Shown here piece after piece: positions 6,395 to 52,986 of a stretch of DNA of 64,000 bases. The translations under genes and the position numbers were made by a program. The notes under the pieces were generated by a model. It was given only the letters and a program-made list of their open reading frames with translations. It did no database searches and was not told the DNA's origin. The stretch is taken from contig NZ_LWSK01000004.1 in the NCBI RefSeq assembly GCF_001642955.1, forward strand, positions 62,001 to 126,000. Reading direction: 5' to 3'. This DNA is from Rubripirellula obstinata (GTDB lineage: Bacteria; Planctomycetota; Planctomycetia; Pirellulales; Pirellulaceae). Position 1 is the first letter of the stretch; every line of letters starts with the position of its first letter.

Positions 6395-7045
6395 GGAAAA
6401 CACGTGTTATTTCGTTTAACCGCGTGGGCATCGCCCCGCGCGTCGTGCTGGTCTCACAGCACGCGGGGCGATGCCCCAATGCCACTTATCTTTAGCCCCG
6501 GACGGGGCGTCAGCACGGTGCCGTGGGCCTTGGCCCACGGGAGTCAAACGCAGCAAAATCCCAAGCCCCGGCAGGGGCGGCAGCGAGCATCCATCGGATC
6601 GATTACCCCTCCGGGGCAAACCATGTTTTCTGGCCGATTACCGGTGGCCGTTGGCCACCGGCAAAGTGCTATGCCCCCTCCAGGGCAGTTCAGTGTTGAA
6701 AATAAGTGCCATTAGGCGATGCCCACGCGGTTAAACCATTCAGAAACCCTTCACGTTGCGGGGCGATGCCCCAATGCCACTTATCTTTAGCCCCGGACGG
6801 GGCGTCAGCACGGTGCCGTGGGCTTTGGCCCACGGGAGTCAAACGCAGCAAAAACCCAAGCCCCGGCAGGGGCGGCAGCGAGCATTCATCGGTTCGATTA
6901 CCCCTCCGGGGCAAACCATCTTTTCTGGTCGATTACCGGTGGCCGTTGGCCACCGGCAAAGTGCTATGCCCCCTCCGGGGCAGTTCAGTGTTGAAAGCAA
7001 ATGCCACTAGGCGATGCCCACGCGGTTAAACAATTTAGACGTTGG
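6395..7045. repeat. P1/P2 repeat block with a ~295-bp tandem duplication
   Basis: A left P1 hairpin arm (6414-6470) leads into a P2 module: GCCCCGGACGGGGCGTCAGC, then CGGTGCCGTGGGC, then TTACCGGTGGCCGTTGGCC hairpins. The whole module recurs 295 bp later (6471 versus 6766) and ends in a right P1 arm (7013-7030). The stretch has open frames on both strands, but they follow the repeat and match no protein. The same P2 module appears at 17970-18075 and 40905-41650. No gene is seen in 6095-7098. Confidence 0.8.
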
Positions 7046-40359: not shown

Positions 40360-41870
40360 ACACAGCAAAGTAGCATGGCGGCCCCCCGCCGTGCGTTGGC
40401 ATGCAAGCAACAGTCCCAGGCTCCACCGCCCACACAGCAAAGTAGCATGGCGGCCCCCGCCGTGCGTTCAATGTGCCTACCCCAACACGACATTTATCAT
40501 CGATCGCAGCAGTGGGTAACGCAGTGAAACAACGTTAGACTGTTAAACCACGCCGGCACCGCCCACACAGCAAAGTAGCATGGCGGCCCCCGCCGTGCGT
40601 TCAATGCGTCTGCCCCAACACGACATTTACCATCGATCGCAGCAGTGGGTAACGCAATGAAACAACGTTAGACTGTTAAACCACGCCGGGCATCGCCCAC
40701 GCAGCAAAGTAGCATGGCGGCCCCCGCCGTGCGTTCAATGTGCCTACCCCAACACGACATCTATCATCGATCGCAGCAGTGGGTAACGCAATGAAACAAC
40801 GTTAGCCATAACGCGTCGGGCATCGCCCCGCGCGCCGACGACCCAGCACGACGCGTGGGGCGATGCCCACGCGGCTAAACAAACTAGAAACCCTTCACGG
40901 CATTGCCAGGCAGGGGCGGCAGCGAGCATTCGTCGGTTCGATTACCCCTCCGGGGCAAACCATCTTTTTGGGTCGATTACCGGTGGCCGTTGGCCACCGG
41001 CAAAGTGCTTTCACCCCTCCGGGGCAATTCAGTGTTGAAAGCAAGTGCCATTAGGCGATGACCACGCGAGTCTCGTGGACGCGAGGGGCGATGCCTCAAC
41101 GCCACTTACGATAGCCCCGGACGGGGCGGCAGCACGGTGCCGTGGGCTTTGGCCCACGGGAACCAAGCGCAGCAAAAACCCAAGCCCCGGAAGGGGCGGC
41201 AGCGAGCATTCATTGGTTCGATTACCCCTCCGGGGCAAACCATCTTTTCTGGTCGATTACCGGTGGCCGTCGGCCACCGGCAAAGTGCTTTCACCCCTCC
41301 GGGGCAATGTTCCACCGCACACGCAGCAAAGTAGCATGGCGGCCCCCGCCGTGCGTTCAATGTGCCTGCCCCAACACGACATTTATCAGCGATCGCGGCA
41401 GTGGGTAGCGCAATGAAACAACGTTAGTCAGACCGCGTTGGGCATCGCCCCGCTCGCTGACGCCCAGCACGACGCGCGGGGCGATGCCCACGCGGCTAAA
41501 CGAACTAGAAACGCTTCACGGTATTGCCCGGCAGGGGCGGCAGCGAGCATTCGTCGGTTCGATTACCCCTCCGGGGCAAACCATCTTTTCTGGTCGATTA
41601 CCGGTGGCCGTTGGCCACCGGCAAAGTGCTTTCACCCCTCCGGGGCAATCCGCCCGCGCAGCAAAGTAGCATGGCGGCCCCCGCCGTGCGTTCAATGTGC
41701 CTGACCCAACACGACATTTATCAGCGATCGCAGCAGTGGGTAACGCAGTGAATCAACATTAGTCAGACCGCGTTGGGCATCGCCCCGCGCGCTGTGAACC
41801 CAGCACGACGCGCGGGGCGATGCCCACGCGGCTAAACAGTTTTGAAACGCTTCACGGCGTTGACCATCAA
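40360..41870. repeat. 1.5-kb array of P1, P2 and 134-bp direct repeats
   Basis: The motif CAGCAAAGTAGCATGGCGG occurs six times (about 40363, 40435, 40568, 40702, 41324, 41659). Copies two to four are separated by 133 and 134 bp and share CCCAACACGACAT and CGATCGCAGCAGTGGGTAAC. P1 hairpins (about 40814-40905, 41440-41525, 41770-41865) and P2 modules (40905-41040, 41110-41310, 41525-41650) are interleaved. Open frames here follow the repeats on both strands and match no protein. No gene is seen in 40249-41976. Confidence 0.85.
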
Positions 41871-44052: not shown

Positions 44053-44925
44053 ATGAGCCTCGCCTCTCACTACACCGACGGCACTTGCGCCATCTCTTTC
44101 GAGCTTTTCCCGCCGAAGACGCCGCAGGGGCTTCAAACGCTGTTAGACAACGTCCGCAAGCTGACTGAGTTCAAACCGGCCTATTTTACATGTACCTATG
44201 GTGCGGGTGGTTCGAGTCAATCGACGACGCTGGACGTGTTAAGCAAGGTGCGCGAACTGACCGATTTGCCGGTCGCGTCTCACCTGACCTGCGTGGGTTC
44301 GACGGTCCAGCAATTGGAAGATTACCTGAACAAAGCGACCGACTGCGGGACCGACTACATCGTTGCCCTGCGAGGCGACCCGCCAAAGGGCGAGACTGAA
44401 TTCCAGGCCGTGCAGGGCGGCTTTCGATATGCCAATGAATTGGTCGAATTGATCCGAGAGAAGTTTTCCAGCTTGGGGATCGCCGTCGCCGGTTACCCCG
44501 AAGTCCATCAAGAGGCCGTCGATGCGAAAACGGATCTTGATAACTTGAAGCGGAAAGTTGACGCGGGCGCGGACATCATTATCACGCAACTGTTCTACGA
44601 TAACGCCGACTATTACCGGTTCCGCGACGACTGCGTTGCGGCGGGAATCAATGTCCCCGTGGTTCCAGGCATTTTACCGGTCACCAACTTTGCACAGGCT
44701 CAGCGGATCGCGTCGATGTGCAAGGCCGGCATCCCTGATTCACTGCGAACCGCAATGACAGATTCGGACGATGCAGACCATCAATTCAAGATCGGCGTCG
44801 AGCATGCTCGGATGCAAACGGTTGATCTGGTGGAAAATGGCGTGCCAGGAATCCATTACTATGTTCTGAACAAGAGTGCCGCCGCCGAGTCATTGTTGGA
44901 TGGAATGCAATTGGGCACCGCGTAG
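44053..44925 (+). CDS. metF: 5,10-Methylenetetrahydrofolate reductase
   Basis: Reduces 5,10-methylene-THF to 5-methyl-THF with FAD, supplying methionine synthesis. The product (290 aa) has the standard length when started at ATG 44053; a TTG at 43972 adds 27 unlike residues. ISFELFPPKTPQGL (14-27) holds the catalytic Glu, FTCTYGAGGSSQ (near 51) and ALRGDPPKGE (near 110) are flavin/substrate blocks, and AGADIIITQLFYDNADYYRF lies near 172. The final 19 codons (44869-44925) are repeated three more times downstream, and the TAG stop lies in the first bases of a family C palindrome. Confidence 0.95.
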   Translation: MSLASHYTDGTCAISFELFPPKTPQGLQTLLDNVRKLTEFKPAYFTCTYGAGGSSQSTTLDVLSKVRELTDLPVASHLTCVGSTVQQLEDYLNKATDCGTDYIVALRGDPPKGETEFQAVQGGFRYANELVELIREKFSSLGIAVAGYPEVHQEAVDAKTDLDNLKRKVDAGADIIITQLFYDNADYYRFRDDCVAAGINVPVVPGILPVTNFAQAQRIASMCKAGIPDSLRTAMTDSDDADHQFKIGVEHARMQTVDLVENGVPGIHYYVLNKSAAAESLLDGMQLGTA

Positions 44926-45377
44926 GCCGGAACAAGCCTTGCGCAGTTCCGGCAATCCAACGTAGTACCATGCAATTGCCGGAACTGCGCAAAGCTTGTT
45001 CCGGCCTACGCGGTTGGAACAAGAGTGCCGCCGCCGAGTCGTTGTTGGATGGAATGCAATTGGGCACCGAGTAGGCCGGAACAAGAGTGCCGCCGCCGAG
45101 TCATTGCTAGATGGAATGCAGTTAGGCATGGCGTAGGCCGGAACAAGCCTTGCGCAGTTCCGGCAATCCAACGTAGTACCATGCAATTGCCGGAACTGCG
45201 CAAAGCTTGTTCCGGCCTACGCGGTTGGAACAAGAGTGCCGCCGCCGAGTCGTTGTTGGATGGAATGCAATTGGGCACTGCGTAGGCCGGAACAAGCCTT
45301 GCGCAGTTCCGGCAATCCAACGTAGCGTTATGCAATTGCCGGAACTGCGCAAAGCTTGTTCCGGCCTACGCGGTTGG
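44869..45377. repeat. Four 57-nt copies of the metF tail alternating with family C palindromes
   Basis: The 57-nt tail (AACAAGAGTGCCGCCGCCGA start, TAG end) is at 44869-44925 (in the gene), 45018-45074, 45080-45136 and 45229-45285. Three family C hairpins separate or follow them (44923-45010, 45132-45221, 45281-45371; GTAGGCCGGAACAAG to CTTGTTCCGGCCTAC). Copies keep the reading frame and stop; differences include TTG to CTA, CAA to CAG and ACC to ATG in copy three. Junctions share AACAAG. No gene is seen in 44926-45387. Confidence 0.92.
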
Positions 45378-52770: not shown

Positions 52771-52986
52771 GCCGGAACAAGGAGTCTTCGACGCAGTTCC
52801 GGCAATCCGCGCAATGCAACTGCCGTCAATTCGCGTCCAACGCATCCAGATCAGGTAGGCCGGAACAAGGAGTCTTCGACGCAGTTCCGGCAATCCGCAC
52901 AATGCAACTGCCGGAACTTCGCTGCGCTTGTTCCGGCCTACATCGTTGCGTCGCAACTGCCGTCAATTCGCGTCCAACGCATCCAG
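52767..52986. repeat. Family C palindromes with a duplicated peptidase-gene tail
   Basis: Two family C arms GTAGGCCGGAACAAG (52767 and 52855) and one complete inverse (ending 52940) are present. The 33-nt sequence from CAACTGCCGTCAATTCGC to CGCATCCAG occurs at 52817-52849 and 52954-52986. The second copy is the true 3' end of the S9 peptidase gene with its stop; the first is a displaced duplicate. Confidence 0.88.

Follow-up and report, generated by a model that had tools for sequence, protein, structure and literature searches.

The window analyzed here, a stretch of 64,000 nucleotides from the draft genome of the planctomycete Rubripirellula obstinata (contig NZ_LWSK01000004.1), contains an array in which the 3' end of metF, the gene for methylenetetrahydrofolate reductase, is repeated together with a palindrome. 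metF was identified by TIGR00676 (331.2 bits, cut-off 293.7); its start is uncertain, and position 44053 was used for the query. The gene is convergent with a sigma-factor gene, and the array lies between the two. The palindrome is a REPIN, i.e., a doublet of repetitive extragenic palindromic (REP) sequences forming a hairpin. The following features were found at this locus (T, metF tail; P, palindrome).

44053..44925, + strand: metF, methylenetetrahydrofolate reductase
44868..45289, + strand: [T P T] present twice in tandem, each unit 211 nt long, with 8 differences between the units, 6 of them within T1/T3
44869..44925, + strand: T1, the genuine end of metF (18 codons and stop)
44922..45009, + strand: P1, an 88-bp REPIN whose GTAG foot gives the metF stop (TAG, 44923-44925)
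45010..45017, + strand: right flank of the REPIN, GCGGTTGG, part of the 149-nt unit
45018..45074, + strand: T2, second metF tail copy (TCA to TCG, GCG to GAG)
45079..45085, + strand: GAACAAG at the T2-T3 junction, 7 nt shared by the start of the metF tail and the REPIN arm and forming the microhomology of the 211-nt duplication
45080..45136, + strand: T3, third metF tail copy, differing from T1 by 6 nt spread over 4 codons (3 silent)
45133..45220, + strand: P2, a REPIN identical to P1
45229..45285, + strand: T4, fourth metF tail copy (TCA to TCG, ACC to ACT)
45282..45369, + strand: P3, a REPIN in which four adjacent loop bases differ from P1/P2

In total, four copies of the metF tail were found, as the original prediction had claimed, and the order of the array is T1 P1 T2 T3 P2 T4 P3. 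Each copy is 57 nt long (AACAAGAGTGCC...TAG) and includes 18 sense codons and a stop. A genome-wide search with the tail produced 4 matches, all within the array and none outside it; the repetition therefore cannot be ascribed to chance. The starts of the downstream copies are offset from that of T1 by 149, 211, and 360 nt. Because of the first two offsets, copies 2 and 3 are out of the metF frame, each being in frame only with its own stop, so the copies carry their stops, as had been claimed, but these two do not keep the frame. It is unlikely that the downstream copies are translated or that the gene needs them.

The palindromes had been described as separators of the tails. They do separate the copies elsewhere in the array, but the T2-T3 junction contains only GCCGG, and the metF stop itself lies within the palindrome, in its GTAG foot. 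No tail follows P3. Similarly, the motif AACAAG, proposed to be shared by the junctions, was found at the T2-T3 junction (as GAACAAG) but not at the palindrome-to-tail junction, where the microhomology is 1 nt (G).

Two repeat units can be distinguished. The 149-nt unit consists of the tail, the REPIN, and the 8-nt GCGGTTGG; it begins 53 nt before the REPIN, within metF, and ends 8 nt beyond it. Over a run of 148 nt, the two 211-nt units are identical. TCA is common to T1 and T3, and TCG is common to T2 and T4. This pairing, the identity of P1 and P2, and the junction microhomologies fit a 149-nt duplication followed by a 211-nt one. The array is an ordered REPIN cluster, equivalent to a bacterial interspersed mosaic element (BIME), and was probably formed by two nested tandem duplications of the gene tail with the REPIN and its 8-nt right flank. 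The T2-T3 junction could also have arisen if an array of four units had lost one REPIN by deletion through GGAACAAG, but this needs more steps than the 211-nt duplication, which fits both the identity of P1 and P2 and the TCA/TCG pairing.

Two other types of repeat were considered and ruled out: a transposon target-site duplication, by P3 lacking a following tail and by the T2-T3 junction lacking a REPIN, and an array of clustered regularly interspaced short palindromic repeats (CRISPR), by spacers that copy one another and are not unrelated.

The REPIN family and its putative transposase

Each REPIN runs from GTAG to CTAC and includes two inverted REPs, each formed by GTAG and an imperfect palindrome, that fold as one hairpin; it is by these features that the palindrome is a REPIN. 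The fold has an energy of -43.8 kcal/mol with 36 pairs (DNA parameters) vs. a mean of -12.2 kcal/mol in 200 shuffles (z -12.4), which argues against a chance palindrome. A pattern search yielded 54 further copies, drawn from the examined loci and not from the whole genome. Among these, the 32 copies of exactly 88 nt (28 distinct) were used for covariation: standard pairs were found in 967 of 1008 paired cells, and two-sided changes in 4 of the 36 pairs. The pattern misses at least four copies with a changed right arm on contig C306. The loop change of P3 (45326-45329, TACC to CGTT relative to P1/P2) resembles a single event and not four point mutations.

The family is abundant in the genome. 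With at most one mismatch, the REPIN arm GTAGGCCGGAACAAGC has 181 + 180 occurrences, against 0 for the reversed control; its locations were taken from the first 100 of these 361 places. The whole palindrome has at least 108 alignment matches, both strands counted, with 40 of 242 candidates scored. One more member was found in the window, outside the array.

52855..52941, + strand: a single REPIN of the same family, 87 bp

The GTAG foot is present in P1, P2, and P3. The 54 further copies are no test of the foot because the search pattern demands it; most of the alignment matches obtained without this requirement start at query position 2 or 3, the latter being the foot. In 4 of the 54 copies, the longest open reading frame (ORF) of at least 100 aa ends on the foot, and the other listed ORFs end outside the copies, in keeping with a family that is mostly intergenic. 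Among these four ORFs, metF and a 308-aa ORF look real; a 105-aa ORF on contig C286 and a 157-aa ORF on contig C273 are taken as spurious. The 308-aa ORF (L122:1622-2548) thus stops on a REPIN foot in the same way as metF.

Within the genus, matches to this family were found in 3 of 22 genomes: the source genome, G013 (76 matches, 72-79% identity among the matches listed), and G014 (10 matches, best E 4.7e-5). A pattern search for clusters found one place in G013 and none in G014. According to the description of the GTAG-tagged REP superfamily, such families occur in Planctomycetes, neighboring ORFs often take their TAG stop from a GTAG terminus, and tandem repetition of singletons or dimers includes segments of flanking DNA (PMC3733652, 2013). 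The metF array resembles this superfamily (PMC3733652) in both respects, since its TAG stop is supplied by the GTAG foot and its flank is repeated.

Two genes for a REP-associated tyrosine transposase (RAYT) scored above the NF047646 cut-off of 80 bits. The first one (L063:2069-2623, contig C306; 164.7 bits) is placed between a cluster of this REPIN family and one more copy, with the end of its ORF 2 nt from a REPIN. The second is located on contig C33. Judging from this placement, the RAYT of C306 is likely the enzyme acting on the family.

Other ordered clusters and copied gene ends

At least five further clusters were found, on contigs C28 (2 copies), C46 (3 copies), C286 (6 copies), C306 (3+2 copies), and C57 (4 arms in register). 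This number is a lower bound because the clusters were sought with exact arms. Linkers are repeated inside each of the five clusters, and by eye those of C28, C46, C286, and C306 match the flank of their own cluster. The junction microhomologies in these four, also read by eye, are 11, 2, 4, and 2 nt, respectively, with no common motif seen. An additional pair of REPINs with a 103-nt spacer was found on C273.

Gene ends are copied in two of the five clusters, C306 and C46, so the search for other palindromes with copied gene tails, suggested in the original prediction, was successful. On C306, a LysR gene (PF03466, PF00126) ends on a REPIN foot with AGG TCA ACA ACA CCG TAG, and its last 5 codons recur, with changes, at four further places; this REPIN is among the copies missed by the pattern. 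On C46 (L061:1969-2263), the last REPIN lies 9 nt from the end of a gene for a protein with PDZ and trypsin-like domains, and each of the other two REPINs is followed by a copy of the final 8 codons and stop of this gene. These two additional tail copies are apparently untranslated. The clusters of C28 and C286 are intergenic. The copied unit is a palindrome with any flank; a separate process that rebuilds gene ends is not supported.

Outside C306, the linker derived from the LysR gene was found once more, on contig C255 (L161), where REPIN halves flank it. There, a 148-nt stretch is 91% identical to the C306 array, and the linker is identical at 19 of 22 positions by eye. Only the 22-nt linker speaks for common descent of the two because most of the 148-nt stretch is the repeat itself. 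It is as if DNA of the gene tail had travelled along with the REPIN, and captured gene tails may become mobile linkers.

Three further tandem arrays, rich in other palindromes, are present in the window: 6463-7039, 40424-40805, and 41186-41857, with periods of 295, 133, and 335, respectively. The first two lie between listed ORFs of at least 120 and at least 110 aa, respectively, and the third one overlaps the end of a 123-aa ORF, perhaps a spurious one.

Ordered clusters repeating REPINs with their flanks were previously described in Pseudomonas fluorescens SBW25, where a cluster adjoins each of three RAYT genes (Bertels and Rainey, 2011; PMC3116915). The metF array differs from the clusters of that description in belonging to a planctomycete and in having the coding end of a housekeeping gene as its flank. 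Capture of a gene end was also described: in four cases, the 3' end of a rayt gene became the inter-REP segment of a BIME (Nunvar et al., 2010; PMC2817692). The claim that such a process is undescribed is thus not upheld. The arrays analyzed here are similar in that a gene 3' end was turned into an inter-REP segment; the captured gene is rayt in those BIMEs vs. metF, a LysR gene, and a protease-like gene here. In a literature search limited to open-licence papers, no capture of gene tails other than those of rayt genes was found.

The array might also be an artefact of assembly, considering that the draft consists of 307 contigs and that both 211-nt units contain the identical 148-nt run. Such an origin is highly improbable: the copies bear private differences, the array lies inside a 135-kb contig, and clusters with other linkers recur.

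Origin of the metF array

The array probably arose in four steps. First, a REPIN moved by RAYT would have inserted at the metF stop. Second, the strong hairpin would have disturbed replication, and a template switch with 1 nt of homology would have duplicated the 149 nt of tail, REPIN, and GCGGTTGG. Third, a slip between the GAACAAG of the metF tail and that of the REPIN arm would have duplicated the 211 nt of [T P T], yielding T1 P1 T2 / T3 P2 T4 / P3. Fourth, the downstream copies would have drifted. The gene tail is a passenger in these steps because it flanks the hairpin. Slippage or template switching at microhomology, as first proposed for this array, agrees with one clean junction, the 7-nt GAACAAG.

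Amplification could alternatively be catalyzed by RAYT, with cleavage at REPs and rolling-circle copying of the resulting circle and no need for slippage; Nunvar et al. (2010; PMC2817692) put forward a rolling-circle model driven by RAYT and argue that recombination or strand slippage alone is unlikely to account for the variation of BIMEs among strains. A RAYT gene does adjoin a cluster of the same REPIN family. Nevertheless, neither end of the first duplicated unit is at a REP, no copy of the family directly precedes T1, and the junctions of C28, C46, C286, and C306 have no common motif visible by eye, so we regard this mechanism as rather unlikely for the array as a whole.

For comparison, 40 genomes including the source genome were searched, and metF was found in 38. 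The loci of 29 relatives (L002-L030), 19 of them from the same genus, were analyzed by BLAST (E 0.05) up to 1500 nt downstream; L009 is only partly readable, with a run of N starting 16 nt after the metF stop triplet, L013 contains 218 N, and L016 contains 2 N. No metF tail copies were found in these 29 loci, except for one 11-nt match in L028, which was taken as chance. In L004 (genome G013), a REP-like palindrome lies 52 nt after the metF stop, without tail copies. The metF gene of L002 stops with TAG at the same codon position in the absence of a REPIN; a native stop at this place is therefore possible. The upstream neighbor of metF lies close to it in 7 of the 29 loci (L002, L004-L008, and L014), with a match of only 55 residues in L014 (E 9e-08). 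No match to the sigma-factor and membrane-protein genes was found in the relatives' loci, of which at most about 1.5 kb downstream was covered.

These loci also bear on a possible function. The array might be kept for termination or protection of the mRNA 3' end, and strong hairpins between the convergent metF and sigma-factor genes would suit such a role. This is improbable, as no array was found in the 29 loci, a single REPIN would be sufficient, and the tails add nothing obvious.

Several points weigh against the origin by template switching and nested duplications. The insertion step is unobserved: no same-species strain was found, the best-scoring relatives having 79 and 80% protein identity, and a contig search for such strains gave 15 loci with a best identity of 75%, in which records near the source genome may be omitted. 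We infer the template-switch steps from the sequence, and action of RAYT is possible, above all for the later duplication. In addition, the 8 differences between the two 211-nt units form a cluster, with 6 in the 57 positions of T1/T3 vs. 2 in the other 154 (p = 0.0055), and the change is silent in 3 of the 4 altered T3 codons, a pattern poorly predicted if a dead copy drifts.

Silent changes and what the array preserves

The changes in the third copy were originally described as mostly silent, and this was confirmed: relative to T1, 6 nt differ in 4 codons, of which 3 are silent and the fourth is T to M. If the six T3 substitutions are treated as independent, the probability of changing at most one residue is 0.003-0.010. 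The count per codon is safer because two T3 codons carry two changes each; it gives p 0.037-0.105 for T3 (3 of 4 silent) and p 0.008-0.041 for all metF copies (5 of 7 silent), both for kappa 1-8. Pooling the metF, LysR, and C46 copies gives 8 of 13 silent changes (p 0.007-0.034); when metF is left out, 3 of 6 are silent (p 0.27-0.33). The proposed excess of synonymous changes was thus found, weakly, at metF but not in the two other genes. The original prediction had also held that simple tandem duplication suffices if other genomes have the palindrome without tail copies and the copies lack a silent bias. A REP-like palindrome without copies was found in one relative (L004); a bias is present at metF and absent in the two other genes.

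The silent changes in T3 are a hint, not proof, that it keeps an older translated end of metF. In such a case, T3 would be a fossil of a once-translated end, and T1 would have been overwritten later by conversion from T2 or T4. The silent excess among the metF copies (5 of 7 codons) and in the pooled count for three genes (8 of 13) points in this direction, as does L002, which has CTC and CAG at two T3 codons. However, T3 was selected after inspection, the two other genes without metF show 3 of 6 silent changes, and no donor was found elsewhere in the genome in the search with the tail. L003, which is as close as L002, has TTG and CAA like T1, and since these two relatives disagree, the direction of the T3 changes cannot be set. 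Overall, a fossil origin of T3 is unlikely. The same low likelihood applies to its generalization, in which REPIN clusters at gene ends would be an archive of older ends that are copied in, freed of selection, and written back by conversion. If this were true, the last codons of such genes would evolve by exchange with the array.

Tandem arrays of hairpins with flanking DNA are already known, and the metF array is an exceptionally clear example in which the passenger is an ordinary gene. The gene-tail copies carry a reading frame, so a REPIN cluster that contains them can be resolved into successive duplications. The affected genes (metF, LysR, and protease-like) are ordinary ones of a planctomycete, and the described captures concern rayt genes. 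The readable junctions show a mobile hairpin at a gene end turning coding sequence into repeat DNA, and the copied gene tails suggest a source of some REP linkers.
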